Positions 2,665-40,583 of a DNA stretch of 64,000 bases are shown one piece after another. Under the pieces are notes generated by a model, which was given only the letters and a program-made list of their open reading frames with translations, ran no database searches and was not told the DNA's origin. Made by a program: the position numbers and the translations under genes. This DNA is from Thermodesulfobium acidiphilum. Lineage in GTDB: Bacteria; Thermodesulfobiota; Thermodesulfobiia; Thermodesulfobiales; Thermodesulfobiaceae. The first letter of the stretch is position 1; each line of letters starts with the position of its first letter. Where the stretch lies: the NCBI RefSeq assembly GCF_003057965.1, contig NZ_CP020921.1, positions 498,501 through 562,500 on the forward strand. Direction: 5' to 3'.

Positions 2665-3981
2665 GTGCTAAAAGTAAATCTTAAGACTCATAGGAAAAGG
2701 TTGTTGGCCGATACCAGTGGCCAAAAACTATTTGTTTTGCTTAGCATTGAGGTTGCTAAAGAAGTTGAGGAGAGAGGAAAGCTTTTTGTCTCCTTTGTTC
2801 TTGACACATCTGGTTCAATGAACGAAACAGTAAATGATAAGTCAAAAATTGAAATTGTTGTTGAATCCCTGAAAAAAATTCTTGAGTCTAACATTTTAAA
2901 AGATGATGATGAGATAAGTATTATAACGTTCGATGATGAAGCAAAAATTGTTCTGCCATTTACCGCTGCGACGAAGAGTGAAAAAATATTTTCATCATTT
3001 GAGCAAATTAAGACTGGCACAGTTGGTACAAATTTGGGTGCTGGGATGAAAGTTTCTTTAGATTTACTTAAGGATAAAGCCGGGATAAAAAAGATGGTTG
3101 TTTTAACAGATGGTAACGTTTTTGATCCAGATCAGGTTGAAAAAGTTCTTGATGAACTTGTTTTTTCTAATATATCTGTGATATCGGTTGGTGTTGGTGA
3201 CGAGTGGAATGAGGATTTATTATGCAGGATTTCTGATCGAACTTTAGGTAAACCTCTGCACCTAAGTGATGTTGAAAACGATTCTGAAAGTTCAAGCAAT
3301 ATTAACGTTAGTAAATTGCCTTATGTCTTTTTAAACGAATTAGGTCATGCGACACAGGAAGTGGTTATGAATATTGAAATGGAAATTGAATTAAAAGATG
3401 GCTTTTCTCTTGAAAGGATAACAAAAATCTTTCCCGTTCAATATGAGATTATGATAGAGAATGCACCTTACTTATTGGGGAATCTCGAATCAAGGAGAAG
3501 AAATGTTTATCTTCTAGAATTTAATATTCCTTCGATGCCTGTCTCAAAGGTTGAAATGGGAAAAATTGAGCTATATTACCAGGTTCCAAATGCTGATACT
3601 AGAGAAAAAATAGGACCTTTTGAAATTGGAATTGAATTTACGAAGGACCAACTGTTGGCAGTTCAAACAGATCAAGAAGTAATGGATTGGGTTCAACAAA
3701 GAAACATTGAGAAAATAGTAAGTGAGGCAATTAGTCAGGCACATAAATCGCCCGAAGAAGCAGAAAAAATTTTGGGTTTGGCAAGAAGTCTAACTATAAA
3801 ATTAAAAAATGAAGACTTAACGGCTTTGTTAGATAAAGCAATAGAAGAAATTAGGGTTAAGAAATATATAGGCTCAAACGTGGCTAAAACGCTTAAAATA
3901 GGCACAAAAACACAACTATTAGATCACTCTAGAGAGGATATGCCTACAGATGATGATATTAGAAAAGCAACAGGAAGATAG
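2665..3981 (+). CDS. VWA (von Willebrand factor A) domain protein, TerY-like
   Basis: A 438-residue soluble protein with a VWA domain at about 38-205 and a complete metal-ion-dependent adhesion site: D47-T-S49-G-S51, T122 (GTVGTNLG) and D149 (LTDG). The C-terminal half is beta-rich up to about 330, then helical. There is no signal peptide or membrane segment, so it is probably cytoplasmic. The start is GTG, with AAGGAG at 2652-2657. It lies between a sensor gene and a PP2C gene followed by a Ser/Thr kinase, the set known from TerY-phosphorylation triads (VWA, PP2C, kinase with zinc ribbon). The family role is thought to be scaffolding or metal-dependent protein binding controlled by phosphorylation. 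The partner here is unknown. Confidence 0.8.
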   Translation: MLKVNLKTHRKRLLADTSGQKLFVLLSIEVAKEVEERGKLFVSFVLDTSGSMNETVNDKSKIEIVVESLKKILESNILKDDDEISIITFDDEAKIVLPFTAATKSEKIFSSFEQIKTGTVGTNLGAGMKVSLDLLKDKAGIKKMVVLTDGNVFDPDQVEKVLDELVFSNISVISVGVGDEWNEDLLCRISDRTLGKPLHLSDVENDSESSSNINVSKLPYVFLNELGHATQEVVMNIEMEIELKDGFSLERITKIFPVQYEIMIENAPYLLGNLESRRRNVYLLEFNIPSMPVSKVEMGKIELYYQVPNADTREKIGPFEIGIEFTKDQLLAVQTDQEVMDWVQQRNIEKIVSEAISQAHKSPEEAEKILGLARSLTIKLKNEDLTALLDKAIEEIRVKKYIGSNVAKTLKIGTKTQLLDHSREDMPTDDDIRKATGR

Positions 3982-4007
3982 GTTGGTCGTAAATATGGAG
4001 AAATCTT

Positions 4008-5450
4008 ATGGATGATGAAGCTGTTGAGAGTTTAGATTTTGAAAAATCGTTTAATTCTTTTAAAGTTGTTGAATCCTTTGAAAATGGATGGAATAAATGT
4101 GAATATAATGGCAAAACGTTTTTGTGCTATAACGGGGAAAGGGTTAATGTCTATGAAAAGATATTAAAGATAAAGATTTTTCCAGAAATATTAAGTCTTT
4201 TCGGTAATAATATTGTTTGTAAGTTTTATCAAGATAAAAGAATAAATCTCCCATTAGCACCAGATTTGTCGCTACTTCTTATAAAAGACATATGTGAAGC
4301 ATCTATTCTTTTAAAAAATCAAGGATATATGTTTAAGAATATTAATGTTAATGACATAGTGAAATCAGAAAATGGCTTTAAGTTCTCAAAAATTCCTACA
4401 ATTATAAGCTTTTCAGATTTTGAGTTAACAAACCAAGCTTATAAAATAGAAGATTATACGATCAAATTGCTGGGCTCCCTTCTATATGAATTATTGAGTG
4501 CAATGTCAATAAACAATGGTTTTGATGTCAAAATTATTTCTCGTTATGATATTCCTGGTATTCCACAATTCCTCTCACTTGCTCTTCCTGGAAGTAGAGC
4601 AAAATTTTCTCTTAATGATGCTTATAATATGTTAAATCAAATATGCTCTACAATCGAAGTGCGCCACTGTAAATATAATATTGGCGCGGCCTCAACAATT
4701 GGCTTGAACGTTTCAAGATCAATCAATGAAGACTCATTTGGTTATGCCCAGATGTATTTCTATAATCATTTTGGAAAACATAACGTTTTGAAAGCCTGTA
4801 TAGCAGATGGTATGGGGGGGATGGAGGCAGGAGAGATAGCCAGTGAAGCTGCTGTAGATGCCTTTTTAACTGAAAAATTTAAACTAATTGATGATGAAGA
4901 ACATATAGCCAATCAAACAATTGAACTTGCATGGAGGGCTAACAAGGCTGTTTTAGAAGGTTTAAATGGTAAAAATGGAGGTTGTACTTTTAGTGGCATT
5001 TTCATTTATGATGACAAGCTTTTTATTGCACATGTTGGTGATACAAGAATTTATCTGTATAAGGATAAAAAGCTTGAAAGGTTAACAAACGATCACTCTT
5101 TGGTTGAAACGTTGATTTTAGGTGGAATAATGACAAGAGAAGAAGCCCTTAACAGTCCCGATAGAAATAAACTTTTAAGGTCTATGGGGGTTATAATAGA
5201 TAAACAAGAAAATTACATAGAAGGACTATATCAAAAATTGGGGAAACACTTTGTTCAATTAGTTAAAGGAGATCTTGTCTTAATAGTAAGCGATGGAGTA
5301 TGGGGTGAATTGCCGGACGATGAGCTGTTTTCTATTATAAGTTCCTTATCTAATAGGCCAGATGACCTGGTAAATGAACTAATTTCAATAGTTTTGAAAA
5401 GAGGGGCGCCTGACAATGCGACAGCAGTTGCTATTTATAAAGAATTTTAA
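4008..5450 (+). CDS. Pseudokinase-PP2C phosphatase fusion
   Basis: 480 residues. The C-terminal part (about 222-480) is a complete PPM/PP2C phosphatase: NEDS (D242), ADGMGG (D267, G268), HVGDTRIY, SDGVWG (D429) and PDNA (D469) supply the two-metal site. The N-terminal part of about 210 residues resembles a protein-kinase C-lobe: NINVNDI stands where HRDxKPxN is expected, SFSDFE replaces the DFG region, LLGSLLYELLS matches helix F, and a helix with a conserved Arg follows. The catalytic Asp and Asn and the DFG motif are not preserved, so it is probably a pseudokinase that docks a substrate or partner. The expected job is to dephosphorylate targets of the kinase encoded 18 bp downstream. The phosphatase call is firm; the pseudokinase call rests on pattern only. 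Confidence 0.85.
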   Translation: MDDEAVESLDFEKSFNSFKVVESFENGWNKCEYNGKTFLCYNGERVNVYEKILKIKIFPEILSLFGNNIVCKFYQDKRINLPLAPDLSLLLIKDICEASILLKNQGYMFKNINVNDIVKSENGFKFSKIPTIISFSDFELTNQAYKIEDYTIKLLGSLLYELLSAMSINNGFDVKIISRYDIPGIPQFLSLALPGSRAKFSLNDAYNMLNQICSTIEVRHCKYNIGAASTIGLNVSRSINEDSFGYAQMYFYNHFGKHNVLKACIADGMGGMEAGEIASEAAVDAFLTEKFKLIDDEEHIANQTIELAWRANKAVLEGLNGKNGGCTFSGIFIYDDKLFIAHVGDTRIYLYKDKKLERLTNDHSLVETLILGGIMTREEALNSPDRNKLLRSMGVIIDKQENYIEGLYQKLGKHFVQLVKGDLVLIVSDGVWGELPDDELFSIISSLSNRPDDLVNELISIVLKRGAPDNATAVAIYKEF

Positions 5451-5468
5451 AAAATTTAAGGAGAGAGT

Positions 5469-7214
5469 ATGATTTTTTGTAAGGTTTGCGGGTATGGACC
5501 TATATCAGAGGAAGTAAATGTTTGCCCGGTATGTGGCACGTCAATTGTTGAAAAGGCTTTTTCTGGGACCAGGACTCTTTCTATAATGTCGCTGGCTTCG
5601 GGGACTCTTCTTCAAAATGGGAAGTACAGAATTGAAGATGTAATTATTCAAGGTGGATTTTCTTTTACTTATTCAGCAGTACAAACTATGCTTGATGTAA
5701 AAGTAGCGATAAAGGAGTTATTTGCACTAGGAGCTACCAGACAGGGTAGTGTTGTTATTTTTGACTCAGATTCTTCTGAGAGTATTGGTGAATTTTTAAA
5801 CGAGGGTAGAATTCTTGCAAGGTTAAATCACCCTGGAATTGTAAAGGTTCTTGATTTCTTTGAAGAAAACAACACTGCGTATCTGGTAATGGAATTTCTT
5901 GAAGGGGAATCTTTGTCTTTGTTGTTGAATAGGGTAGGAAAAATACCCGAAAATGAAGCTCTTAATTATATTAAACAAGTAGCCCAGGCTTTAAAAGTTG
6001 TTCATGATGCGGGGTTACTTCACCAGGATGTAAAGCCAGATAATTTAGTTTTAACAAAAGAAGGTCGAATTGTAATTGTTGATTTTGGATCAGCCAGGCA
6101 ATTTATAGCAGAGAAAACAGGCAATTATGATAGAATTGTTACTCCTGGCTTTGCACCTCTTGAACAATACGGTCAGAGAGTGAGAAGGGGGCCATATACA
6201 GATGTTTATTCACTTTGCGCTAATTTTTATACGTTAATAAAAGGCTTTCCTCCACCACCTGCTCCAGATAGATTGCAAACTTTAAAAGAATTAGATTTAG
6301 CGGGTATAAGTCCTAAAATTGGTAGAATTATTTCAAAAGGTCTTGAAGTTAATGTAAACAATAGAATTAGATCGATGGATGAGCTTTTGGCGATGATTGA
6401 TGAAGTAGAAGGCAAAACTTTTGCAGTGGATAAAACTATTTCGAAAGAAATGCTGCAAAGGGAAGAGGGCATTAATTTTGATGATAGAAAACTTTCTACA
6501 GGTAATGAAGGTATAGCTTATCAAAAAGAAATACCTGATATTGATATTTTGGAAATTGAGAGTCAAGAAGATCCTAAAGTACTTTTTGAAATTGGATTAA
6601 AATATTTATTGGGTTTTAATGTTACAAGAAATTTCGATATAGCGTTTAAATGTTTTAGAGAGGCTTCAGAAAAGGGAAATGCTGATGCAATGTACCACCT
6701 TGGACTTATGTATCTTCACGGACAAGGTACTTATCAGGATGATAAAATGGCCTTCAAATACTTCAAAGAGGCTTCAGAAAAGGGAAATGCTGATGCAATG
6801 TATAGACTGGGCTGGATGTATGAGTATGGTAGAGGTACTTATCAGGATGATAAAATGGCCTTCAAATACTTCAAAGAGGCTTCAGAAAAGGGAAATGCTG
6901 ATGCAATGTACCACCTTGGACTTATGTATCTTCACGGACAAGGTACTTATCAGGATGATAAAATGGCCTTCAAATACTTCAAAGAGGCTTCAGAAAAGGG
7001 AAATGCTGATGCAATGTATAGACTGGGCTGGATGTATGAGTATGGTAGAGGTACATCACAGGATTATAAAATGGCAAAGTATTGGTATGAGAAGTCAAAA
7101 GATTTAGGAAATATTGATTCGAAAAACAAACTTGAAAGCTTTTTACCTGAAATTAGTTCTAAAAAAAATAAGGGTAACTTTATTGGGAAAATTTTCAAAA
7201 ATATTTTTGGTTGA
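5469..7214 (+). CDS. Zinc-ribbon Ser/Thr protein kinase with Sel1-like repeats
   Basis: 581 residues. The N-terminus has a zinc ribbon (CKVC at 4-7, CPVC at 19-22). A kinase domain follows (about 48-320): a glycine loop around GGFSF, VAIK with K82, LHQDVKPDN with D187 and N192 (Gln in place of the usual HRD Arg), VDFG with D205, and FAPLEQYG. A linker leads to four or five Sel1/TPR-like repeats (about 360-545), which usually bind proteins. There is no membrane segment, unlike PknB-type kinases with PASTA domains. AAGGAGAG precedes the ATG. It is the last gene of the sensor-VWA-PP2C run. HQD instead of HRD suggests an RD-independent active state; activity itself looks intact because Lys, Asp, Asn and DFG are all present. 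Confidence 0.88.
   Translation: MIFCKVCGYGPISEEVNVCPVCGTSIVEKAFSGTRTLSIMSLASGTLLQNGKYRIEDVIIQGGFSFTYSAVQTMLDVKVAIKELFALGATRQGSVVIFDSDSSESIGEFLNEGRILARLNHPGIVKVLDFFEENNTAYLVMEFLEGESLSLLLNRVGKIPENEALNYIKQVAQALKVVHDAGLLHQDVKPDNLVLTKEGRIVIVDFGSARQFIAEKTGNYDRIVTPGFAPLEQYGQRVRRGPYTDVYSLCANFYTLIKGFPPPPAPDRLQTLKELDLAGISPKIGRIISKGLEVNVNNRIRSMDELLAMIDEVEGKTFAVDKTISKEMLQREEGINFDDRKLSTGNEGIAYQKEIPDIDILEIESQEDPKVLFEIGLKYLLGFNVTRNFDIAFKCFREASEKGNADAMYHLGLMYLHGQGTYQDDKMAFKYFKEASEKGNADAMYRLGWMYEYGRGTYQDDKMAFKYFKEASEKGNADAMYHLGLMYLHGQGTYQDDKMAFKYFKEASEKGNADAMYRLGWMYEYGRGTSQDYKMAKYWYEKSKDLGNIDSKNKLESFLPEISSKKNKGNFIGKIFKNIFG
6660..7054 (+). repeat. In-frame tandem repeat, 108-bp units in an A-B-A-B pattern
   Basis: Units start at 6660, 6768, 6876 and 6984, each 108 bp or 36 codons, one Sel1 repeat. 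Bases 6660-6838 are identical to 6876-7054 (179 bp), so the block is a recent 216-bp duplication of an A-B pair. Repeat number probably varies between strains. Confidence 0.92.
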
Positions 7215-18001: not shown

Positions 18002-18460
18002 ATGAAAATTCTTGTAGCTGTCGATGGCACCAAGTATTCTAGAGAGGCAGTTTTGTGGGCAGTTAAAATAGCTAAAAAAGAAAAGGATGCTAAAATAATA
18101 GCACTCTATGTTGAAAGGCAGCTTTCGAGGGAAGATTATTTATTATCTGATGATGAAATTGATCTTAAAATTGAAAAAAAAGCAAATGATATATTTGTAA
18201 AATCGTTTGAAGATATAGATATTGAGGGTGTCGAAGTTGAAAGAATAGTAGAAAGGGGTAGTCCTGCATCAAAAATATTAGATGTTTCTGATAGGGAAGA
18301 TGTAGATTTGATAGTTGTTGGAAATAGATCGAGATCAGGAATTAGCAATTTCTTTTTGGGATCGGTGTCTGACAAAGTTTTTACTTATTCAGTAAGACCT
18401 GTTCTTGTTGTAAAGACAAGAGAAAAAGAACCTGAAATAGAAACAGTAGCTATAACTTAG
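18002..18460 (+). CDS. Universal stress protein (UspA family)
   Basis: 152 residues with one Usp domain: N-terminal ILVAVDGTKYSREAVLWA and C-terminal ATP-binding pattern GNRSRSGISNFFLGSVS followed by RPVLVV. This is the ATP-binding type by motif. A cytoplasmic stress-related nucleotide-binding protein; the target is unknown. AAGGAGGG precedes the ATG. Its end overlaps the convergent glycosyltransferase gene by 11 bp. Confidence 0.93.
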   Translation: MKILVAVDGTKYSREAVLWAVKIAKKEKDAKIIALYVERQLSREDYLLSDDEIDLKIEKKANDIFVKSFEDIDIEGVEVERIVERGSPASKILDVSDREDVDLIVVGNRSRSGISNFFLGSVSDKVFTYSVRPVLVVKTREKEPEIETVAIT

Positions 18461-19550
18461 TTTTAAAGATATTTTTAGCTTCTTTGTAATTATCAATAAG
18501 AGAAAGCGTAATTTTTTCCCAGGAGAAATTTATTGCATAAGGTCTTGCTTTTTTTTCCAGTTCTGTTCTTGCATCTTTATTTTTAATCAAATAACATATT
18601 TTTTGTGCAAGATCATTTGGATCGTTTGGTTCAACTAATAAACCATATTGACCATTTTTTAAAAGACTTCTAAAACCAGTGATGTTTGAAGCAACAACTG
18701 CTGTCCCGCATGAAAGTGCTTCTAGAATAGTCATACCGAAACTTTCGCCACCTAATGCTGGTGAACAAAATATCCAGGCTTTTGAGTATTCTCTTGCAAG
18801 GTCTTCTTCGCTTAATTCTCCAAGAAACTTTATGCCATCAAGATCTTGAAATTTGTTAATTCTTTTTTCAGTAGAATATCCAGCAATTCTAAGTTGCGCA
18901 TCAGGGAATTTTTTGAAAATTTTATTCCATGCTCTTAATAGCACATCAAGCCCTTTTCTTTTTTCAAGTCTTCCAACAAAAAGTATTGTCGGTTGTTGAA
19001 ATTTTTCAGAGGGGGCAAATATGTCAATATTAACTCCATTTGGTATGATTTTAAAATCTCCATTAATATATTGTTCTGCAAAGTGCATTGATGCTTCTGA
19101 AACAGCAATTTTAACATTTATCCTTTCGGAAAATTTTTTTGAAATTGGTTTAAACCATTCAAAGGGGAAAGGTATATCAGAATAGGCGTGAAAAGTACCT
19201 ACTATTGGTTTATTTATAGTAAATATAGAAAAAAGAGATGGACCTGGTGCAAATGGTTCGTGTATGTGCCATATATCGAAGTTTTCTTTAAGCAAAAGTA
19301 TTTTTCCGAGAGCTCCTGGGGTAGGTGCAAGTCTTGCTATAGAACCATTTGTCATAAAAGGAAAAGATCTACCTACTGTGTGAAATCTTGAGTGATCAAT
19401 ATTGTAGGCAAGTGGTTTTCCTGGTTCTGCAGGAGCAATTATGTGCGTTTCTATGTTGTATTTGTCAAAGAATTTCTGTAGAAAAAAAAGGTGAGTATTA
19501 ACTCCTCCTTTAAAGGAGAAAGAGTATGGGCTGACAAGGGCTACCTTCAT
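18450..19550 (-). CDS. pimA: GT4 glycosyltransferase, phosphatidylinositol mannosyltransferase (PimA)-like
   Basis: 366 residues, GT-B fold, family GT4. Its N-terminal half has PYSFSFKGGVNTH, TNGSIARLAPTPGA, HIHEPFAPGPS and VGTFHAYS; the C-terminal half has IPNGVNI, FVGRLEKRKGLDVLL and the nucleotide-sugar motif GGESFGMTILEALSCGTAVVAS. These segments line up with mycobacterial PimA as I remember it, including the Arg, Lys and Glu that bind GDP-mannose. The expected reaction is transfer of mannose (or another sugar) from a nucleotide sugar to phosphatidylinositol on the inner face of the membrane. The ATG overlaps the end of the acyltransferase gene by 4 bp. Last gene of the inositol-lipid operon. 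The family is secure; acceptor and sugar are inferred from context. Confidence 0.8.
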   Translation of the reverse strand: MKVALVSPYSFSFKGGVNTHLFFLQKFFDKYNIETHIIAPAEPGKPLAYNIDHSRFHTVGRSFPFMTNGSIARLAPTPGALGKILLLKENFDIWHIHEPFAPGPSLFSIFTINKPIVGTFHAYSDIPFPFEWFKPISKKFSERINVKIAVSEASMHFAEQYINGDFKIIPNGVNIDIFAPSEKFQQPTILFVGRLEKRKGLDVLLRAWNKIFKKFPDAQLRIAGYSTEKRINKFQDLDGIKFLGELSEEDLAREYSKAWIFCSPALGGESFGMTILEALSCGTAVVASNITGFRSLLKNGQYGLLVEPNDPNDLAQKICYLIKNKDARTELEKKARPYAINFSWEKITLSLIDNYKEAKNIFKTKL

Positions 19551-20413
19551 TCGTAATCATCTCCAATCCAATTGGGTTGAAAGATAAACCATTGTGTTGG
19601 ACTGATCTTTATCATTTCTTCTAGATTTTTTATTAATAAATTTGTTATTTCTTCCTTTGAACTTTCACTTTTATACTCTATTTCTTTGAAGTATATTTGA
19701 TATTTTTTGTTTAATCTATACAAACCAGCTATAAAAAGTTTTGGGTTAGTTCTCTTTATTAAAATTGAAGGTCCATCGTTGAAGATACATTCTCTTCCAA
19801 AAAATGTTGTTTTTATTCCGTGTTTTGTTAAGTTTCTGTCGACTACAAGTGCTATTACATTGCCTTTTTTTAACTCTTTTAAAGACTTTATTCCAGTAGA
19901 TTCATTAAGTGGAATTGTTTCTAATCCAGCTTTTTCTCTTGTCCATTTAAAAAATTTAAACAGCCATTTGGGCTTTATTGACTCAGCTACTGCAAATGTT
20001 TTTTTGTTACACTCTTTTGATATTGATGATATTATGTAAGACCCTAGGTCCCAATTGCCAAAGTGAGCAGTAATAACAACTATGCCTTTATCATTTGCTT
20101 TTAGAAAACAATTTCTTAATATTGAATATGATTCTTGAAAGTTATTGATAAAGTATTTAGTAAATTTTATTAAAAGCGGCAATAAAATTATTTCAAGATA
20201 ATAAATTGAGTAATTATAAAAGTTTTGACTGACAAGAATATTTAACTCTTTTTCGCTTAAATTTGGAAATAAATTTTTAAATCTTAATTTTGCTAAACGA
20301 AATCCTTTTTTATGAAGTGATTTCATAAAAAAGGAAATAGGACGTGCAAAAAACCTTATATTTTCGAATATAAAATAACACAGAAAAATTTTAATCCTTT
20401 CTTTAAAAAACAT
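19547..20413 (-). CDS. patA: Lysophospholipid/lipid A-type acyltransferase, PatA-like
   Basis: 288 residues, LPLAT family. The N-terminal part is hydrophobic and amphipathic (about 8-35). Catalytic HxxxxD is in TAHFGNWDLGS, followed by VVDRNLTKHGIKTTFFG and the C-terminal PTQWFIFQPNW. The pattern with DRNLT and QWF...QPNW is close to mycobacterial PatA, which acylates the mannose of PIM1/PIM2, and less close to LpxL. It sits between the pgsA-like and pimA-like genes in the same order as in mycobacteria. The symbol is given on motif plus context; LpxL-type action on another lipid is the main alternative. Confidence 0.78.
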   Translation of the reverse strand: MFFKERIKIFLCYFIFENIRFFARPISFFMKSLHKKGFRLAKLRFKNLFPNLSEKELNILVSQNFYNYSIYYLEIILLPLLIKFTKYFINNFQESYSILRNCFLKANDKGIVVITAHFGNWDLGSYIISSISKECNKKTFAVAESIKPKWLFKFFKWTREKAGLETIPLNESTGIKSLKELKKGNVIALVVDRNLTKHGIKTTFFGRECIFNDGPSILIKRTNPKLFIAGLYRLNKKYQIYFKEIEYKSESSKEEITNLLIKNLEEMIKISPTQWFIFQPNWIGDDYE

Positions 20414-20465
20414 TCTTATGCCTTACTTTAAGAGAGTTTAAAATTCCTGACAAGGATATAGCTTT

Positions 20466-21044
20466 TCAATTTTGTTTATATCCCTTGAATGCTATTAAAA
20501 TTCTTTGAAAAGTTGTAAATATCGAAAGTATTGTAAGTATTATAAGTCCCTGTAATAAATAGCCAGTTGCCAAAAACACAACTAGCAATAAAAGCCTTTC
20601 TGGTCTTTGCATAAGTCCACCCTTGATAGGAACATTGTCGCATTCTGCTCTTGCCTTCGAGTAAGATATCATGTAAGAAAAAACCATTGATAAAAAAGAG
20701 AAAATTATAATAAGATTATTAGTATTTATGATTCCATATATGGCTATAAAAGTAAAAATAAAGCCTTCAGATAGCCTATCAAGAGTTGAATCTAAAAAAC
20801 CTCCAAATTTGGTTATTTTCCCGGAAATTCTTGCAACCAACCCATCTACAGAGTCGAATGAAACTGCAATTAATAAAAGCAAAGCGCTAATTATATTTGG
20901 AAGAAATATAATTGAAAGTGATGCAAGAAAGGTTGTTATAGTGCAAAAAATAGTTATAGAATTTGGAGAAATATTCATTTTTGATAAAAGTTTTGCTATA
21001 GGATAAATAATTGGTTTTATTAATTTTCTTTTATCTATTTCCAT
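20466..21044 (-). CDS. pgsA: CDP-alcohol phosphatidyltransferase, phosphatidylinositol phosphate synthase type
   Basis: 192 residues with about six membrane helices. The CDP-alcohol phosphotransferase signature DxxDGxxAR...GxxxDxxxD is complete in DSVDGLVARISGKITKFGG then LDSTLD. The later segment YSKARAE...QRPERL matches the inositol-phosphate-binding region of phosphatidylinositol phosphate synthases. The expected reaction is CDP-diacylglycerol plus inositol 1-phosphate to phosphatidylinositol phosphate and CMP. The gene overlaps the PHP gene by 14 bp. It has no nucleotidyltransferase domain, which argues against a di-myo-inositol phosphate synthase. Glycerol-phosphate specificity (true PgsA) cannot be fully excluded. 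Confidence 0.82.
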   Translation of the reverse strand: MEIDKRKLIKPIIYPIAKLLSKMNISPNSITIFCTITTFLASLSIIFLPNIISALLLLIAVSFDSVDGLVARISGKITKFGGFLDSTLDRLSEGFIFTFIAIYGIINTNNLIIIFSFLSMVFSYMISYSKARAECDNVPIKGGLMQRPERLLLLVVFLATGYLLQGLIILTILSIFTTFQRILIAFKGYKQN

Positions 21045-21765
21045 TTATCAGTTTGCTACCTATTTTTTGTGCGATATTTTTTATATCTGAATTTAGTCTT
21101 GTTTTAGCAATTCTTATATGATCCTTAACACTCCAAAACTCTCCATATGCTCTGGTTTGTCTATTTATAATAGCGTTTTTCACGTCTTCGAGATTTTTTA
21201 TACTTTTGGGGAACAAAGTGTATGCACTTCCTATTGTGTCCAGCGTATGAGAATCAGTACCGGCAAGTTCTGCCAATTTTAAAATTTTATTTAGTTCTAT
21301 TACCTTTTGCCTGACTACTCTACCAGCAAGCGTAGGATTTATTATTTCTATTGCATCTGGTTTTGGAAAGGTTTCTTTTTTAAATATATTTTTTATACAA
21401 CGAAGTGAGACGCTATACGTTAAAGGACTCATTGGATGAGGAAGAACTATTATTCCGCCTGATTCATACGTTATTTCTATAGTTTTATAAATACTGGTAA
21501 ATTTCCTTATGTGTTTGTCTATAAAAAGACAAATTATGTGACCTTGTAGGGTAGTTACTTCAACTCCAGGAACTACAATTATTCCATATTTTTCTCCTAA
21601 TTCAACAGCCTTTAGGGATCCCTTTATATTGTCATGATCTGTTATGGCAATTATTTTGAGATCCGTATAGTTTGCTACATATCTAACTATTTCTTCCGGT
21701 GACGCTATTCCATCGCTGAAACTGCTGTGTATGTGAAGATCGGCTTTAACAAAATTTTTATCCAT
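21031..21765 (-). CDS. PHP-domain phosphoesterase (inner copy)
   Basis: 244 residues, PHP fold with a full metal-site set: DLHIHSSFSDG, TDHDNIKG, GVEVTT, LPHP and GTDSH. The family includes phosphatases and nucleases that use a trinuclear metal centre. It overlaps the preceding acyltransferase by 8 bp and the following pgsA-like gene by 14 bp, so synthesis is probably coupled to that of the lipid enzymes. Inference: it could dephosphorylate phosphatidylinositol phosphate or another phospholipid intermediate, a step otherwise unassigned in this operon. Nuclease or 5'-phosphatase activity is the alternative. Confidence 0.85.
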   Translation of the reverse strand: MDKNFVKADLHIHSSFSDGIASPEEIVRYVANYTDLKIIAITDHDNIKGSLKAVELGEKYGIIVVPGVEVTTLQGHIICLFIDKHIRKFTSIYKTIEITYESGGIIVLPHPMSPLTYSVSLRCIKNIFKKETFPKPDAIEIINPTLAGRVVRQKVIELNKILKLAELAGTDSHTLDTIGSAYTLFPKSIKNLEDVKNAIINRQTRAYGEFWSVKDHIRIAKTRLNSDIKNIAQKIGSKLINGNR

Positions 21766-22534
21766 TTTTTATCTCCATTGGCAAAAAAATATACCACTGT
21801 TGTGGATAAGTTTTTACGTATTTTTCAAAATAATTTACCCATTCTTGCATTGTGGCTTTGTAGTCCTTTTTTGGCTTAATATATTCTTCTATGTAGCAAT
21901 CAAAACTAAATGGTTGCTTCCTGATTATAAATACTGGTAGAATTGGACACTGCCTTGAAGATGCTATCTGAAAAGCTGCTTTCGGAAAAGGAATTTTATG
22001 ATTTAAAAAATTTATATATTCAGATGGATGATTTGAAGCTATATCACTAAGCATACATAAAATTTGATTTTTCTTAAGCGAGCTTATTATTTCTCTTAAT
22101 CCACCTTTTGCAGGAATCACATCAAAGCCAATTCTTGAACGGATTAATTTTATTAAATGACCAGCAAAAGGGAAATCAAGGTTTGCAACAACTTTTAATT
22201 TGATACCTCTGTGTTCAAATAAACTTCCTGCATCCCAGTTGCCTATATGTGCCGTATTCACTATTACCCCTCTTTTCAAAGATAAAGCTTCATCAAGTCT
22301 TTCTAAATTAAAAAAATTTATATTAAAACTCTTTTTATTTAAAACTAATACTAATACTTCGTATATATAGTCGCTATATGATACAAGAGCTTCTTTGGCA
22401 AGCGTTTCATAATCTGGATGATTGGATGCATTGCCTATTATTTTATAGTTGTTTAATATAATTTCCCTCTTTTTTTTATTATCCCAATAAATACCAAAAA
22501 TAACTCTTTTAATTATTTTTTTTATTAATAACAG
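21758..22534 (-). CDS. Second LPLAT acyltransferase, apparent CTG start
   Basis: 258 residues if translation begins at CTG 22534. Catalytic HxxxxD is in TAHIGNWDAG, followed by the SSLKKNQILCMLSDIAS region and C-terminal QQWYIFLP. The first TTG in frame (22279) would remove about 85 residues that fit the LPLAT N-terminal helices (LSYxD...LERLDEALSLKRGVIVNTAH pattern), so the gene must start earlier. Upstream to the in-frame stop at 22547-22549 there is no ATG, GTG or TTG. GGGAG (22545-22541) lies 6 nt before CTG 22534, which itself is 1 nt after the ino1 stop. The role may be a second acylation of the inositol lipid or of its precursor. Confidence 0.75.
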   Translation of the reverse strand: MLLIKKIIKRVIFGIYWDNKKKREIILNNYKIIGNASNHPDYETLAKEALVSYSDYIYEVLVLVLNKKSFNINFFNLERLDEALSLKRGVIVNTAHIGNWDAGSLFEHRGIKLKVVANLDFPFAGHLIKLIRSRIGFDVIPAKGGLREIISSLKKNQILCMLSDIASNHPSEYINFLNHKIPFPKAAFQIASSRQCPILPVFIIRKQPFSFDCYIEEYIKPKKDYKATMQEWVNYFEKYVKTYPQQWYIFLPMEIKNG

Positions 22535-22546
22535 ATTATTCTCCCT
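22532..22546 (-). promoter_or_regulatory. Ribosome-binding site with CTG start of the acyltransferase
   Basis: Read on the minus strand: AGGGAG, AATAAT, CTG. Spacing is 6 nt. It is the only plausible site between the in-frame stop and the conserved region. Confidence 0.55.
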
Positions 22547-23600
22547 TTATAAAACTTTCAAGCATTGCTCTTGCTTGTGTGTCAGGATATTGTACTGGGG
22601 GGCTTTTCATGAGGTATGCGCAAGCGCTGATTATTGGCCCACCTAATTTTCTATCTTTTGCTAACTTTACCAGCCTTAGTGCATCAACTATTATTCCCGC
22701 AGAATTTGGGGAATCCCATACCTCTAATTTGCATTCTATATTCAATGGGACTTCACCAAAAGCTTTGCTTTCTATCCTTATATATGCCCATTTCCTATCA
22801 TGTAACCATGGAATATAGTCTGAGGGCCCTATGTGTATATTTTCTTCTGACATAGGTTCTGGCATTAATGAGTTTACAGCATTTGTTTTGCTAATCTTTT
22901 TTGATTCCAGTCTTTCTCTTTCTAGCATATTTAAGAAATCCAAATTACCCCCAACGTTGAGTTGGAACGTTCTCTCTATTTCAAGACCCCTGTCAAGGCA
23001 AATTTGAGTAAGGGCCCTATGTAAAATTGTAGCACCAAGCTGAGATTTTATGTCGTCACCTATTATTGGCAAATTTTTGTCTTCAAATTTCTTTGCCCAA
23101 TCACTATTGCTTGCTATAAAAACGGGAATCGCATTAATAACGCCTAGATTTGCTTCTAATGCACAGTTCATGTAGAATTCTGTAGCTTTTTGACTCCCCA
23201 CAGGTAAATAGTTTATTAAAACATCTGCCTTTGATTCTTTTAAAACTTTTACTACATCAACTGGTTCTTTTTTCGATTCTATAATTGCTTTTGCAGCATA
23301 TTTGCCAATTCCATCATTCGTGTGTCCTCTCATAACAGTTACGCCTAAGTTTGGAACGTCATGAAGCTTTATGGTATTATTAGGCGCTGTAAATATGGCT
23401 TCAGAGAGATCTTTGTCTACTTTTCTTTCGTCAATATCAAAGGCGGCCACGAAACGAATATTTTCTAATTTATATGGACCAATCTTTTCATGAATTAAAC
23501 CGATGGGTTTTTTGTGTGAGTTTTTATAAAATTCAACACCTTGCACTAAAGAGGAGGCACAATTCCCAACCCCAACTATTGCAACTCTTATTTCTTGCAT
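22536..23600 (-). CDS. ino1: Myo-inositol-1-phosphate synthase
   Basis: 354 residues. It converts glucose 6-phosphate to myo-inositol 1-phosphate with NAD. The N-terminal Rossmann part has VAIVGVGNCASSLVQG; later segments include NYLPVGSQKATEFYM, IGDDIKSQLGATILHR, LNVGGNLDFLNM and the C-terminal LEVWDSPNSAGIIVDALR, matching the short actinobacterial/archaeal type. The start is ATG 23600, with AAAGGAG before it; the longer frame to 23675 runs into the previous gene. It begins 1 bp after the PHP gene stop. It supplies inositol 1-phosphate to the pgsA-like synthase downstream. Confidence 0.95.
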   Translation of the reverse strand: MQEIRVAIVGVGNCASSLVQGVEFYKNSHKKPIGLIHEKIGPYKLENIRFVAAFDIDERKVDKDLSEAIFTAPNNTIKLHDVPNLGVTVMRGHTNDGIGKYAAKAIIESKKEPVDVVKVLKESKADVLINYLPVGSQKATEFYMNCALEANLGVINAIPVFIASNSDWAKKFEDKNLPIIGDDIKSQLGATILHRALTQICLDRGLEIERTFQLNVGGNLDFLNMLERERLESKKISKTNAVNSLMPEPMSEENIHIGPSDYIPWLHDRKWAYIRIESKAFGEVPLNIECKLEVWDSPNSAGIIVDALRLVKLAKDRKLGGPIISACAYLMKSPPVQYPDTQARAMLESFIKGE

Positions 23601-23601
23601 T

Positions 23602-24258
23602 TTATAACTCCTTTCTTTTTTGAAAACTTGCTGATATTTTATAAAAGATATTCTCAAGAAAAAAATATTTTCCAACTATTTTGGCTTCACTCAAAATTTT
23701 TACCAAATTTTCTCTCGAAACGTTTAGTTCTGTTTCAACATAAGAATAGGTTTTACCGAATCCTTCTATTGAGTGTGCATCACTTCCTGCTGCAACCACC
23801 TTTCTATTTTTTGTTGCAAACTCTTTAGCAAGAAAATTTTCATAGGGCAACGATTTAGCATTAAACGATTCAATTATATCAAATTCATCTAAGAGAGCTC
23901 TTTTAACAGAATTTTTTAATGCACTTCTAAAAAAGGAAAACGGATGAGGAAGATATACAAGAGCATTCTGCGCTCTAATTTGCTTTATAGTTTCAGATGC
24001 GCTCAGATATGGTTTAATTTCTTTTTGTAGGAATAGTCCAATTATTTCTCCTTGAGTAGTAAGAATTTCTTCTCCTATAATAATTTCAATATCCCTTATT
24101 CTATCCCTTGCAATCAGTGCCCCCTTTATCGTGTTGTGATCGGTAATGGCGATTACGTTTATGCCACTTAGTATAGACTTTTTGTGCAGTTGTTCTATAG
24201 AAATATTTGAATCTTTAGAAAAATCAGTATGAACGTGTAAGTCTATTTTATATTTCAT
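23602..24258 (-). CDS. PHP-domain phosphoesterase (outer copy)
   Basis: 218 residues, PHP fold: DLHVHTDFSKDS, TDHNTIKG, GEEILTTQG, LPHP, AAGSDAHS. The metal ligands are all present. It resembles the other PHP protein of this operon (TDHx-x-IKG, TTQG/TLQG, LPHP), pointing to an old duplication. It overlaps the end of nth by 4 bp and abuts ino1. Possible roles are inositol-phosphate or phospholipid phosphatase, by context only. Confidence 0.85.
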   Translation of the reverse strand: MKYKIDLHVHTDFSKDSNISIEQLHKKSILSGINVIAITDHNTIKGALIARDRIRDIEIIIGEEILTTQGEIIGLFLQKEIKPYLSASETIKQIRAQNALVYLPHPFSFFRSALKNSVKRALLDEFDIIESFNAKSLPYENFLAKEFATKNRKVVAAGSDAHSIEGFGKTYSYVETELNVSRENLVKILSEAKIVGKYFFLENIFYKISASFQKRKEL

Positions 24259-24902
24259 TTATTATTAGAAATTCCTACCTTTGGACAAATATCGTTTAAT
24301 ATACATTCCTGACATTTAGGATTTTTTGCAGTACATATTGTTCTTCCGTGTTGATTTAACATATATGAGAATTTAAACCAATTTTTTTCTTCCACATTTG
24401 AAGAAATCTCTCTTTCAACAGTTATTGGATCGGCTTTTTTTACAAGAGCTAAGCGCATAGCCAATCTCTTAACGTGAGTGTCAACGACTATAGCGCTTTT
24501 ATTAAATACATAGCCTAAAATAGCATATGACGACTTTCTTCCTAATCCAGGAATTTTAATAAGGTCATTGAAATTATTTGGTAAAGTTGAATTGAAGTGT
24601 TTGATTATATACTTTGCCCCTTCCTTAAGAGACTTTGCCTTATTGTGATAGAATCCGGTTGAATGTATTGCTTCTTCTAATTCCTCTAATGATATTCTGT
24701 CTAAATCTTCAAAGCTTTTTATACGTTTAAACAATTCTTTAGTTACCGTATTTACTTTTTCGTCTGTGCACTGAGCCGCAAGAACAATGGCCACATAAAA
24801 TTCGAAAGGAGTGTTAAAGTTCAGGTTACTTTTTATTTCAGGATAGAGAATATTAAGTCTATGTAATATTTCGGAATAGATATTAGTTTTGTTTAAAACC
24901 AT
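24255..24902 (-). CDS. nth: Endonuclease III (DNA glycosylase/AP lyase)
   Basis: 215 residues. Removes oxidised pyrimidines in base-excision repair. Helix-hairpin-helix with catalytic Lys region IPGLGRKSSYAIL, catalytic Asp in VVDTHVKRLAMRL, and the 4Fe-4S loop C-x6-C-x2-C-x5-C (CTAKNPKCQECILNDIC). Starts 5 bp after the pnp stop. Full length for the family. Confidence 0.96.
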   Translation of the reverse strand: MVLNKTNIYSEILHRLNILYPEIKSNLNFNTPFEFYVAIVLAAQCTDEKVNTVTKELFKRIKSFEDLDRISLEELEEAIHSTGFYHNKAKSLKEGAKYIIKHFNSTLPNNFNDLIKIPGLGRKSSYAILGYVFNKSAIVVDTHVKRLAMRLALVKKADPITVEREISSNVEEKNWFKFSYMLNQHGRTICTAKNPKCQECILNDICPKVGISNNK

Positions 24903-24907
24903 TTTCG

Positions 24908-27073
24908 TTATCTGTTTGTCCTTTTTTGTTTTCCTGAATGTTTGTTACTTTTAGAATCTGATGAATTTTCTGAAAGAGCCTTTATGCTTAAATTTATTTT
25001 TCCGTTGCTTTCAAGATCAAGAACTTTCACTGTCACCTCATCTCCTAACTTTAAAACATCTTCAACGTTTTTGACTCTTGTTTTCGAGAGTTCAGAAATG
25101 TGGACCAGGCCCTCTTTTCCAGGAGCAATTTCAACAAGTGCTCCAAAGTTGAATATCTTAGTTACCTTTCCAATGTAAATCTGTCCTGGAACTATTGGTT
25201 TAGTTATGTTATTTATGATTTCGATGGTTCTATTTAGACCTTCTCTGGAGGTAGATGCTATATAAATTTTACCATCTTGTTCAATACTGATCTTTGAGCC
25301 AGTTTCTTCTATGATTTTCTTGATTATTTTTCCACCTTGCCCTATTACATCACTTATCTTATCCGGATTAATCTGAATCATTTCTATTCTTGGAGCATAG
25401 TTTGAAAGTACTTCTCTGGGATGTGATATAGCTTGATTCATTTTTTCTATGATTACCTTTCTGCCTTCATTTGCTTTTTTAAGCGCTATTGAAAGAGCGT
25501 CAATGGGTATACCAGGTACCTTTACGTCTAGTTGTAGCGCACTAACTCCGTCAATAGTTCCGGTAACCTTAAAATCCATATCCCCTAATGCATCTTCCAA
25601 ACCAGTAATGTCAGATAGAACAACAATTTCGTCATTTTCATAAATAAGTCCCATAGCTATTCCGCCAACGTGTTTTGAAATAGGAACACCTGCATCCATC
25701 AGAGATAAAGAAGAACCGCATGTTGAAGCCATAGAAGATGAGCCATTTGATTCAAGTATTTCAGAGACAACTCTTATAGTGTAGGGAAAATCAGATTCTT
25801 TTGGTAAAACTGGCAATAAAGCTTTTTCTGCCAGGGCACCATGGCCAATTTCTCTTCTTCCCGGCCCCCGTGATGGTCTTGCTTCACCTACGCTAAAACC
25901 TGGAAAATTATAATGATGCATATATCTTTTTCTGATTTCATTGCTTGATTGATAAAGGGTATCTATTATCTGAGAATCTTCCTGTGTTCCCAGTGTTGCA
26001 ATGCTAAGTGCCTGTGTTTGACCTCTGGTAAAAAGTGCTGAGCCATGTGCTCTTGGTAATAAACCCACTTGAATGGATATCGGTCTAATTTCATCTAAAT
26101 TTCTACCATCAACTCTTTTTTTGTTTTTTATCACATAGTTTCTTATTATCTTTTTTAATCTATTTTGGAAAGCCTGGTTTATTAACAAGAGATTATTTTC
26201 TACAAATTCAGTACCAAATCTTTCAGACAAAGTAGACAAAATTTCGTCTTTTAATTCCTTTTCTAAATTTTCAAAATCCTGTTTTGTTTTGAGAGGAAAT
26301 CTATCCGTGATGCTACTCGTTAAAATAGAATCTAATGCGTTGATAATGTCTTCTGTTGGTTCTTGCAAATAGACTGAACTCTTAGTTGGATTTATTAAGG
26401 ATATTAATTCTTTTTGAAGGTCGCATATTTTTGTTATTGCCGGGAGAGCATAATTAATTACTTCAATTATCTTATCTTCAGGGATCTCGTTAAAACTTCC
26501 TTCTATCATTAGAATGTTGTTTTCTTTGCCTACTACTACGATATCTATGTCACTTTTTTCGATCTGATCAATTGTGGGGTTTAAAATGAACTTTTTGTCG
26601 ATTTCGCCAACTCTAACAGCGCCTACAGGTCCATTAAAAGGAATGTCTGAAATACATAAAGCTGCACTGGAAGCGATGATAGAAAGCACATCTGCTGGAA
26701 AATCATTATCTATCGAGAGGGGAAAGGAAGAGATACAGACATCATTTCTTAATCCTTTTTGAAACAACGGTCTGATAGATCTGTCTATAATTCTACTATA
26801 CAGAATAGCTCTTTCGCTTGGTCTTCCTTCTCTTTTAAAAAACCCCCCAGGAAACTTTCCAGCAGCATACATCTTTTCATCAAAGTCAACTACCAGAGGC
26901 ATGAAGTCTATATCACTTCGGGCTTCTTTAGACATTGTTGCTGCACTAAAAACTATAGTATCTCCTGATCTAACAGTAACCGAACCGTTTGCTTGCTTTG
27001 CTAAAAGTCCCGTTTCAATATTTATAACTATGCCTTCTGCTATTTCTTTTGTGATACTGTGTACTCCGTTCAT
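24908..27073 (-). CDS. pnp: Polynucleotide phosphorylase
   Basis: 721 residues. Phosphorolytic 3'-5' exoribonuclease, trimeric. Two RNase PH domains: the first has FMPLVVDFDEKMYAAGKFPGG, the second FTRGQTQALSIATLG and GPGRREIGHGALAEKAL with the catalytic Asp in ITGLEDALGDMDFKV. These are followed by a KH domain (ISDVIGQGGKIIKKI) and an S1 domain (GKVTKIFNFGALVEIAPGKE). The ATG shares one base with the rpsO stop (TAATG). The rpsO-pnp order is widespread. Confidence 0.97.
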   Translation of the reverse strand: MNGVHSITKEIAEGIVINIETGLLAKQANGSVTVRSGDTIVFSAATMSKEARSDIDFMPLVVDFDEKMYAAGKFPGGFFKREGRPSERAILYSRIIDRSIRPLFQKGLRNDVCISSFPLSIDNDFPADVLSIIASSAALCISDIPFNGPVGAVRVGEIDKKFILNPTIDQIEKSDIDIVVVGKENNILMIEGSFNEIPEDKIIEVINYALPAITKICDLQKELISLINPTKSSVYLQEPTEDIINALDSILTSSITDRFPLKTKQDFENLEKELKDEILSTLSERFGTEFVENNLLLINQAFQNRLKKIIRNYVIKNKKRVDGRNLDEIRPISIQVGLLPRAHGSALFTRGQTQALSIATLGTQEDSQIIDTLYQSSNEIRKRYMHHYNFPGFSVGEARPSRGPGRREIGHGALAEKALLPVLPKESDFPYTIRVVSEILESNGSSSMASTCGSSLSLMDAGVPISKHVGGIAMGLIYENDEIVVLSDITGLEDALGDMDFKVTGTIDGVSALQLDVKVPGIPIDALSIALKKANEGRKVIIEKMNQAISHPREVLSNYAPRIEMIQINPDKISDVIGQGGKIIKKIIEETGSKISIEQDGKIYIASTSREGLNRTIEIINNITKPIVPGQIYIGKVTKIFNFGALVEIAPGKEGLVHISELSKTRVKNVEDVLKLGDEVTVKVLDLESNGKINLSIKALSENSSDSKSNKHSGKQKRTNR

Positions 27074-28374: not shown

Positions 28375-29394
28375 TTGTTGTTTCTTATATGTCTGTTTTC
28401 TTTTTTTCTTTCACTCTTGAACACTAAATTTGTAATTTTTTTATCTGAAAAATTGGAAATTTACGATAAGCCTGATAAGAGAAAGATTCACAGTAAATTA
28501 ACATCCCGCCTTGGAGGATTTGGATTTTTTGTACCTTTTCTAATTACATTATTCTTATACTCCCTTTTGGTAAAGGGATTTGAAATTACTGATTTCCTGA
28601 TTTGCGTTTTTCCAATATTTTTCCTTGGGCTATATGACGATCTTTTTGGAATTAATCCTATTATAAAATTAGCAGCCCAAATTTTTGCCTCGTTTATAGC
28701 TTTTAATTTAGGTTTTCGAATAGACTATATTTATTTTCCATTTGTAGGGTATCTTTTTTTTGGAGGATTGTCGTTGTTTTTGACAATTTTTTGGCTTGTA
28801 GGGTTATCTAATGCGCTAAATTTGGTAGATGGTATGGATGGCTTGGCATCGGGAGTTGCTATTTTAATACTTTTATCAATGGCAATAGTTTCTTATGTTC
28901 TGGATAGAAATTTTGTTTTTATAATTTCGATAATACTTTTGTTTTCTATGACAGGTTTTTTTGTTTTCAATATAAATCCTGCTAGAATATTTATGGGAGA
29001 TAGTGGCTCCTTGACTGTGGGTTTTATAATTGGTCTAATCTCTATTAGTGGGTTTATGAAGGGCCTTACACTTGTAACGCTATTTTCAATTATTATTATG
29101 CTAATAATCCCTGTTGCAGATACTTTTTGGGCTATTATAAGAAGATCGGTATCTGGAAGATCAATTTTTTCACCTGATAAAGGTCACTTTCATCATATGC
29201 TTTTGGAAAAGGGCTGGAGTGTAAGGAAGATCAATTCTTTGTTTAGAGGAATCACTGTAATGGGATCTCTGGTATTCTTTTTTGTCTTTTTGCCTCAAGA
29301 ATATTTTTTGTTTACAGCTTCTTTTTTGATTTTTGGTTATCTATTTTTATTTTTACTTGAATCTATTGTTATTGGAGTGAGAAAAAGTGCTTAA
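28375..29394 (+). CDS. wecA: Undecaprenyl-phosphate sugar-1-phosphate transferase (WecA/TagO type)
   Basis: 339 residues, about ten membrane helices, GT4-like polyprenyl-phosphate transferase (MraY/WecA superfamily). Signatures: PDKRKIHSKLTSRLGG, LGLYDDLFGI, NALNLVDGMDGLASG, RIFMGDSGSLTVGF and HFHHMLLEKG. The GDSGS and DGMDG motifs carry the catalytic Asp residues. It starts a lipid-linked glycan by moving GlcNAc-1-phosphate (or similar) onto undecaprenyl phosphate. TTG start; the next gene, a UDP-GlcNAc 2-epimerase, overlaps by 8 bp and fits the same surface-polysaccharide path. Confidence 0.92.
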   Translation: MLFLICLFSFFLSLLNTKFVIFLSEKLEIYDKPDKRKIHSKLTSRLGGFGFFVPFLITLFLYSLLVKGFEITDFLICVFPIFFLGLYDDLFGINPIIKLAAQIFASFIAFNLGFRIDYIYFPFVGYLFFGGLSLFLTIFWLVGLSNALNLVDGMDGLASGVAILILLSMAIVSYVLDRNFVFIISIILLFSMTGFFVFNINPARIFMGDSGSLTVGFIIGLISISGFMKGLTLVTLFSIIIMLIIPVADTFWAIIRRSVSGRSIFSPDKGHFHHMLLEKGWSVRKINSLFRGITVMGSLVFFFVFLPQEYFLFTASFLIFGYLFLFLLESIVIGVRKSA

Positions 29395-30556
29395 AGCTTT
29401 GCTGATTTTTGGGACTAGACCTGAAGCTATTAAAATGGCTCCTCTTTTTTTGGAATTAAAGAACTCGAAGTACTTTGAACCTGTCGTGGTTGTTACTGCT
29501 CAGCACAGAGAAATGCTAGATCAGGTTTTGAAAATATTTAATATTGAACCAGATTTTGATCTTGACATAATGAAACCGGGTCAGAGCCTTGAAGGAATAA
29601 CTATTAGAGCATTGGAAGGTTTATGTAATATTATGAAGAGGGTTAATCCATCTATTGTTCTTGTTCAGGGAGATACAACGACCACTTATGTGGGAGCATT
29701 AGCAGCATTTTATCACAGAATAGCAGTTGGACATGTAGAGGCAGGTTTGAGAACTTATGATAAATTCAACCCTTATCCTGAAGAAGTTAATAGAAGGATG
29801 ACTACCTGTCTTGCTGATTTACATTTTGCACCTACTATTATTTCTTTTAATAACCTGATCAAGGAAAATGTCAAAAAGGAAGATATATTTATAACCGGGA
29901 ATACCGTTATAGATTCTTTACTTCATATATCTAAAAGAGATTATGATTTTCCTCCAATTTTAAATTCAATAATAAATTCTCCTTTAAGAAAGATTTTAGT
30001 TACTGCTCATAGAAGAGAAAATTGGGATGAAATGAAAAATATTTTTCATGCAATAAAAAAGTTAGTTGAGAGCTTTGACGACATACATATAATTTTTCCT
30101 GTACATATGAACCCAAAAATAAGAGTTGATGCTCAAAATATTTTGGGCAATAATTCAAGAGTATCTTTGCTTGAACCCCTTGACTATGAAGCTTTTATAC
30201 ATGTTATGAAAAACTGTTACATCATACTTACAGATTCTGGAGGCGTTCAAGAAGAAGCCCCCTCTCTTGGTGTTCCTGTGGTCGTTATGAGAAAGACTAC
30301 AGAGAGACCTGAGGCGCTCAAGGCAAATGCAGTTGTTTTAAGCGGAACTGATGGAGAAAAAATTTACAATACTGCAGCTAAACTCTTGAGTGATAAAACT
30401 TTTTATCTTTCTATGAAAAAGAAGCTCAACCCCTATGGAGATGGGAGAGCTTCTTTTAGAATTTTGAAATCTCTAGAATATTTTTTTAAACTTAGCTCAG
30501 AAAGGCCTGTTGATTTTAGATACAATTATGAAGATGGTTTACTATTAGAAACCTAA
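29387..30556 (+). CDS. wecB: UDP-N-acetylglucosamine 2-epimerase (non-hydrolysing)
   Basis: 389 residues. It interconverts UDP-GlcNAc and UDP-ManNAc for surface polysaccharides. Conserved: FGTRPEAIKMAPL, VTAQHREMLDQVL, VQGDTTTTYVGALAAFY, HVEAGLRTYDKFNPYPEEVNR, HRRENW, SGGVQEEAPSLGVPVVVMR and TERPEA. The GTG start lies within the end of the wecA-type gene. It converges with the LUD gene and overlaps it by 12 bp. Confidence 0.96.
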   Translation: MLKALLIFGTRPEAIKMAPLFLELKNSKYFEPVVVVTAQHREMLDQVLKIFNIEPDFDLDIMKPGQSLEGITIRALEGLCNIMKRVNPSIVLVQGDTTTTYVGALAAFYHRIAVGHVEAGLRTYDKFNPYPEEVNRRMTTCLADLHFAPTIISFNNLIKENVKKEDIFITGNTVIDSLLHISKRDYDFPPILNSIINSPLRKILVTAHRRENWDEMKNIFHAIKKLVESFDDIHIIFPVHMNPKIRVDAQNILGNNSRVSLLEPLDYEAFIHVMKNCYIILTDSGGVQEEAPSLGVPVVVMRKTTERPEALKANAVVLSGTDGEKIYNTAAKLLSDKTFYLSMKKKLNPYGDGRASFRILKSLEYFFKLSSERPVDFRYNYEDGLLLET

Positions 30557-39444: not shown

Positions 39445-39456
39445 TTCGAGGTGAGT

Positions 39457-40527: not shown

Positions 40528-40583
40528 TTTGTATAATATATTTATTGAGTTTTATATTCTTAAAATACAAAGGGGTAGAAAAG

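Follow-up and report, generated by a model that had tools for sequence, protein, structure and literature searches.

A minus-strand operon in Thermodesulfobium acidiphilum probably directs the synthesis of an acylated glycolipid of the phosphatidylinositol (PI)-mannoside type. The operon lies in a 64,000-nucleotide stretch of the genome (contig NZ_CP020921.1, positions 498,501 to 562,500), here called the window, and coordinates refer to it unless noted otherwise. PI-mannosides (PIMs) count as a hallmark of mycobacteria and related bacteria; the mycobacterial PIM operon has the order pgsA1-patA-pimA (Rv2612c-Rv2610c). In Thermodesulfobium a run of genes from 27073 down to 18450 comprises pnp, nth, the PHP-domain gene PHP1, ino1, the acyltransferase gene AT1, a second PHP-domain gene PHP2, a pgsA-like gene, a second acyltransferase gene AT2 and a gene for a PimA-like family 4 glycosyltransferase (GT4). 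Neighbouring genes overlap or almost abut, with the exception of 52 bases between the pgsA-like gene and AT2, and the order of the seven genes from PHP1 to GT4 is kept in three congeners at identities of 70-98%. The original prediction for this DNA had named ino1, a PgsA-like, a PatA-like and a PimA-like gene, and all four are real and intact on the minus strand where it had placed them; AT1 and the two PHP genes of the same operon had been overlooked.

For the substrates and the order of steps we infer the following scheme from the gene families. Ino1 would convert glucose 6-phosphate to inositol phosphate, and the PgsA-like enzyme would join this to CDP-diacylglycerol, giving phosphatidylinositol phosphate (PIP). 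A phosphatase, most likely PHP2, would release PI, and the PimA-like enzyme would use GDP-mannose to attach a first mannose to it. Two more fatty acyl chains, on the mannose, the inositol or both, would come from AT1 and AT2.

The PimA-like glycosyltransferase and the acyltransferases

The product of the last gene (18450..19550, minus strand) matches PimA of M. smegmatis (4n9w/2gej) over residues 1-356 with an E-value of 1.5e-54 and 189 bits, the next solved GT4 scoring 70 bits. The PimA/GT4 motifs PY, GGV, NGS..R, HEP/EP, TFH and GESFG are all present. In the best tree the cluster-borne PimA proteins and the crystallised M. smegmatis PimA form one clade against 17 other GT4s, with support of 100/98 (bootstrap/SH-like approximate likelihood ratio test, SH-aLRT). 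The original prediction had named a placement with unrelated GT4 groups as an outcome that would count against it; the protein falls with actinobacterial PimA instead. We predict it to be a PI mannosyltransferase that would use GDP-mannose. GDP-mannose pyrophosphorylase/phosphomannose isomerase scores above the curated cut-off in all four congeneric genomes (446.6 against 373 bits in the host). Elsewhere in the window (39451-41984) a phosphodiester glycosidase of the NAGPA type adjoins a phosphoglucomutase/phosphomannomutase, and the latter could be a source of mannose 1-phosphate. The other GT4s of the host score 48-55 bits against the PimA-like protein, and among them none was assigned as PimB' or a later mannosyltransferase.

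Inositol phosphate supply is represented by ino1 (22536..23600, minus strand), a myo-inositol-1(3)-phosphate synthase of the actinobacterial/mycothiol-type subfamily (TIGR03450, 2.2e-160; PF01658, 8e-36). The predicted glycolipid acyltransferase AT2 (19547..20413, minus strand) belongs to the PatA/LpxL superfamily (PF03279, 1.2e-29), has the PIM acyltransferase as its best NCBIfam model (9e-32) and is closer by sequence to PatA (6.7e-14) than to LpxM (1.9e-5). Its invariant H117 lies within HFGNWD, an Hx4D motif. AT1 (about 21758..22534, minus strand; PF03279, 3e-22) is a second member of this superfamily and carries the motif HIGNWD. Its start, AGGGAG followed by CTG just past the end of ino1, is conserved in four genomes, and gene calling with ATG, GTG and TTG missed the gene because its start codon is CTG. 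No ATG, GTG or TTG lies close to this start, and the open reading frame (ORF) as listed opens at a TTG inside the gene; a truncated pseudogene is nevertheless ruled out, as homology extends to the conserved CTG. In a tree AT1 pairs weakly (SH-aLRT 82) with a Chloroflexota acyltransferase that likewise follows ino1.

Several points weigh against the proposed pathway. The lipid is a prediction from gene content, and Ino1 (533.6 bits, cut-off 638), the PgsA-like protein (145.7 bits with the PIPSynth model, cut-off 170) and AT2 (110 bits, cut-off 209) all score below the NCBIfam equivalog cut-offs. The AlphaFold2 model of AT2 (pLDDT 86) has PatA (5oce) as its top Foldseek match with LpxM close behind and little separation, and the acyltransferase tree is weakly resolved. 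An approximately unbiased (AU) test also does not reject a tree in which the Thermodesulfobium GT4 lies outside all other PimAs (p-AU 0.105). At 31-36% identity neither mannose nor the PI acceptor is fixed, donor and acceptor switches are easy in GT4 and LpxL-type enzymes, and PHP proteins have many substrates. It is conceivable on these grounds that PI is made but that GT4 and the acyltransferases build a different inositol glycolipid, with a glucosyl, glucosaminyl or other hexose residue in the place of mannose, as the donor cannot be read from such identities and the same holds for acyltransferase specificity. We consider this unlikely, since PimA is matched over its whole length and with a far higher score than any other solved GT4, the PimA clade is well supported and GDP-mannose synthesis is encoded. 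A PI-mannoside thus remains our preferred product.

The PgsA-like protein and the phospholipids of the host

The pgsA-like gene (20466..21044, minus strand; PF01066) encodes a CDP-alcohol phosphotransferase whose product matches the solved structures of RsPIPS (1.3e-23) and MtPgsA1 (4.7e-21). The family motif DxxDGxxAR(x8)GxxxDxxxD is present, and D64, D67, G68, D85 and D89 correspond to the catalytic residues of MtPgsA1. All residues of the MtPgsA1 inositol-phosphate pocket (R94, S132, K135, R137, R152, R155 and R195) are kept, here as R90, S127, K130, R132, R147, R150 and R181; both residue sets are those named in PMC6506517. The model for archaetidylinositol-phosphate synthase scores the protein equally (146.5 bits, cut-off 180), both enzyme types using inositol phosphate, and the PgsA model of the phosphatidylglycerol (PG) type gives 32 bits with a cut-off of 109. 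The PIPSynth cut-off that the protein misses is a limit on score and says nothing about chemistry. A PIP synthase activity is therefore predicted from pocket and family, although the PgsA tree is too poorly resolved for placing the Thermodesulfobium gene. The retained pocket, together with the PimA clade, supports the inositol glycolipid that the original prediction foresaw.

The host genome is complete, consists of a single contig of 1,774,794 bases and has 0.05% contamination. Three congeners are its nearest kin (the genome of one, G001, has 1,898,865 bases), and the remaining sampled genomes share only the domain with it. By its gene content T. acidiphilum, of the phylum Thermodesulfobiota, is a lipid-A diderm, since it encodes LpxC with neighbouring genes for BamA, LpxD, LpxA and KDO (3-deoxy-D-manno-octulosonic acid), the neighbours being ORFs read by eye. 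The window also codes for PilM and for the PilQ-type secretin that the original prediction had noted.

In each of the four congeneric genomes the operon PgsA is the one CDP-alcohol phosphotransferase found. A second, diverged PgsA was found neither with the PF01066 hidden Markov model (HMM) at E<=10 nor with the exact motif. Psd gave no match at E<=1 in these genomes. No cardiolipin synthase was found among the matches to the phospholipase D (PLD) family, which comprise a single-domain protein of 198 residues, long proteins of ~1,060-1,130 residues and a two-domain protein of 721 residues; the last was rejected as a candidate, because on inspection its sequence reads as polyphosphate kinase and Ppx genes are adjacent. 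Overall, the HMM and motif searches at these thresholds recognised no route to PG, phosphatidylserine, phosphatidylethanolamine (PE) or cardiolipin in the four genomes. The inositol route appears to be the one head-group pathway encoded. Since the searches turned up neither another CDP-alcohol phosphotransferase nor Psd nor a cardiolipin synthase, the phospholipids of this bacterium are probably inositol-based for the main part.

All four genomes encode Lgt, an enzyme that in known bacteria uses PG, despite the lack of a recognised PG synthase, and this belongs with the points raised above against the proposed pathway. Either the PgsA-like enzyme is bifunctional, or a PG route went unseen, or Lgt accepts an inositol lipid. 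In the first case the single phosphotransferase would be broad and make both PG-phosphate and PIP, so that the cells would hold ordinary PG and a minor inositol lipid, with one of the PHP proteins acting as PG-phosphate phosphatase. The presence of Lgt, the lack of any other PG synthase among the search results and the two PHP proteins in the operon would all fit. With every inositol-phosphate pocket residue of MtPgsA1 kept and the PG-type model far below its cut-off, we hold such a broad enzyme to be a minor possibility. More speculative in scope, and in our view doubtful, is a lipopolysaccharide-bearing bacterium with inositol phospholipids throughout: it would have lost, or never had, the synthases for PG, PE and cardiolipin, PI and acyl-PI-mannosides would form the bulk of its phospholipid, an inositol lipid would feed Lgt, and PHP2 would represent a new PIP phosphatase family common to the PIM clusters of several phyla.

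Related loci in other phyla and the role of PHP2

PIP synthase-like proteins (E<=1e-20) occur in 127 of the 386 sampled genomes, and PI synthesis outside Actinobacteria is thus not rare in itself. PIP synthase genes outside PimA loci often adjoin ino1, and inositol phospholipid may be far commoner in bacteria than described. The rare part is the presence of PimA and acyltransferases beside the PIP synthase. The scan of genome contigs listed the best 80 matches, so that the distribution is a lower bound. Genes within 5 kb were counted. Outside Actinobacteria, 47 PIP synthase loci without PimA have neither an acyltransferase (0/47) nor a PHP gene (0/47). The 30 loci with PimA have an acyltransferase in 15 cases and two acyltransferases in 11, ino1 in 20 and a PHP gene in 15. 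This association with PimA gives a Fisher p of 4e-8, a value that is overstated, the loci being related. One of the 15 PHP genes, at locus L160, is of the PHP1 type and on the opposite strand, which leaves 14 of the PHP2 type.

These counts bear on the acyltransferases. The host has LpxC and lipid A genes and LpxL-type enzymes are expected in it; together with the nearness of LpxM to PatA in Foldseek, this makes it thinkable that AT1 and AT2 serve lipid A and stand here by chance, the lipid being plain PI or a PIM without extra acyl chains. However, a separate LpxL-like gene exists elsewhere in the host genome (about 1.1146-1.1155 Mb of the genome), and the pairs of acyltransferases at PimA loci are mostly from Chloroflexota, with none near PIP synthases that lack PimA. 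To our knowledge lipid A is not generally reported for Chloroflexota. A role in lipid A is therefore improbable, and we keep to AT1 and AT2 as predicted acyltransferases of the glycolipid.

The same counts single out PHP2 (21031..21765, minus strand), a PHP-domain metal-dependent phosphoesterase (PF02811 and PF13263). A gene of its type lies near PimA and PgsA in 14 of the 30 non-actinobacterial PimA loci and at none of the 47 other loci. The PHP metal-ligand set is kept in 13 cluster copies; in the copy at locus L188 the first motif lacks its second histidine. That locus is titled Dehalococcoides mccartyi, has a GC content of 69%, which is unexpected there, and probably comes from a misnamed metagenome bin; we do not claim the pathway for this species. 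The model of PHP2 (pLDDT 91) has a fold that matches the PHP phosphoesterases TM0559, BVU_3505 and RNase AM. Gene association and fold make PHP2 a tentative candidate for the PIP phosphatase, a role that we regard as quite possible without calling it probable. By its association with PimA and PgsA loci it is also a candidate for the PIP phosphatase of mycobacteria, which was called "yet-unidentified" in PMC6506517. The Bacteroides PIP phosphatase is the PgpA-type BT_1525, from a family different from PHP (PMC9246714). The Bacteroides cluster BT_1522-1526 resembles the present one in that a myo-inositol phosphate synthase, a PIP synthase and a dedicated phosphatase stand together outside Actinobacteria; it differs by its phosphatase type, by having no PimA or PatA described and by its product route, which leads to inositol sphingolipid (PMC9246714).

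Clusters in Chloroflexota and in genomes of the FCPU426/Goldiibacteriota type contain families of the Thermodesulfobium operon, namely Ino1, PgsA, PimA, a pair of acyltransferases and the PHP2 type. They differ in gene order (ino1-AT-AT-PHP-pimA-pgsA and pgsA-ino1-AT-pimA-AT-PHP, respectively), and PimA identity is 33-38%. The claim of a pathway outside Actinobacteria thus holds for Thermodesulfobium, which is not alone in this. Lagutin and colleagues are said to have described PI-acylmannosides in Thermomicrobia in 2015. PI itself is reported in Dictyobacter, a member of the Chloroflexota (PMC12453558). Both observations lower the newness of a location outside Actinobacteria, and literature searches gave nothing decisive on PI-mannosides in Chloroflexota or on Thermodesulfobium lipids. 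Two things are surprising, a lipid-A diderm with one head-group synthase and the association with PHP2.

Compared to the mycobacterial operon, the order pgsA-acyltransferase-pimA and an ino1-type supply of inositol phosphate are shared, and the closest matches with a solved structure are PimA, PatA and PIP synthases of actinobacteria. The order is found in 43 of 43 actinobacterial loci that have both genes (e.g. L154, L155, L180-L235). The mycobacterial order claimed by the original prediction stands in this respect, but it does not extend to ino1, which is within 5 kb of pgsA at none of these 43 loci. A second acyltransferase or a PHP gene near pgsA is likewise found at 0/43. Beyond the shared order the Thermodesulfobium operon holds ino1, one more acyltransferase gene and a pair of PHP genes, and its host is a lipid-A diderm in which no pimB' or later mannosyltransferase was assigned and other head-group synthases were not found. 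At Thermoleophilia/Solirubrobacterales loci (L169, L171, L174, L175, L176, L184, L185, L191 and L194) the PimA-like ORFs have ~770 residues, and L174:10001-12307 encodes a fusion of the GT4 with an LPG_synthase_TM membrane domain (PF03706).

The shared order raises the question of recent horizontal acquisition from an actinobacterium, the more so as the best tree shows the Thermodesulfobium PimA as the sister group of those from Actinomycetota (99/97). However, a separate clade unites the PimAs of Actinomycetota (95/70), the AU test disfavours a position among those of Actinomycetes (p-AU 0.027) and the branch of the Thermodesulfobium protein is long (1.4). The cluster has a GC content of 31.5%, the window 33.7%, and at actinobacterial loci a second acyltransferase and a PHP gene are missing near pgsA. 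We regard a recent transfer as very improbable. The original prediction had offered transfer or an ancient pathway; a derivation from within Actinomycetes is disfavoured, a grouping with Chloroflexota PimAs is not rejected (p-AU 0.129), and the long branch is compatible with transfer as well as with vertical descent. Actinobacterial contamination is ruled out by the complete single-contig genome, its low contamination value, the GC content of the cluster and the agreeing congeners. A chance assembly of unrelated genes is ruled out by operon conservation in four congeners and by recurrence in other phyla.

Neighbouring genes and wider meaning

Upstream and outside the pathway lie the housekeeping genes nth and pnp (24255..27073, minus strand), the former identified by TIGR01083 and the latter by translation. 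The first gene after nth, PHP1 (23602..24258, minus strand; PF02811/PF13263), overlaps it by 4 bases, and nth and pnp are likely co-transcribed with the inositol-lipid genes. PHP1 is a paralogue of PHP2 with about 30% identity and differs from the PHP type conserved in the clusters. Further features of the window are a WecA/TagO-like GlcNAc-phosphate transferase with an adjacent UDP-GlcNAc 2-epimerase (28375-30556) and a signalling module of consecutive genes for a VWA protein, a PP2C phosphatase and a Ser/Thr kinase with Sel1 repeats (2665-7214).

The acyltransferase making diacyl PIMs was not identified in PMC9490103. The cluster described here supplies candidates for two missing enzymes, this acyltransferase and the mycobacterial PIP phosphatase. 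A committed gene set with conserved extra genes, found in a lipid-A phylum as well as in other phyla, would make the pathway much wider than Actinobacteria. It also raises the testable question of whether a diderm can manage with inositol phospholipids when PG, PE and cardiolipin are all missing.

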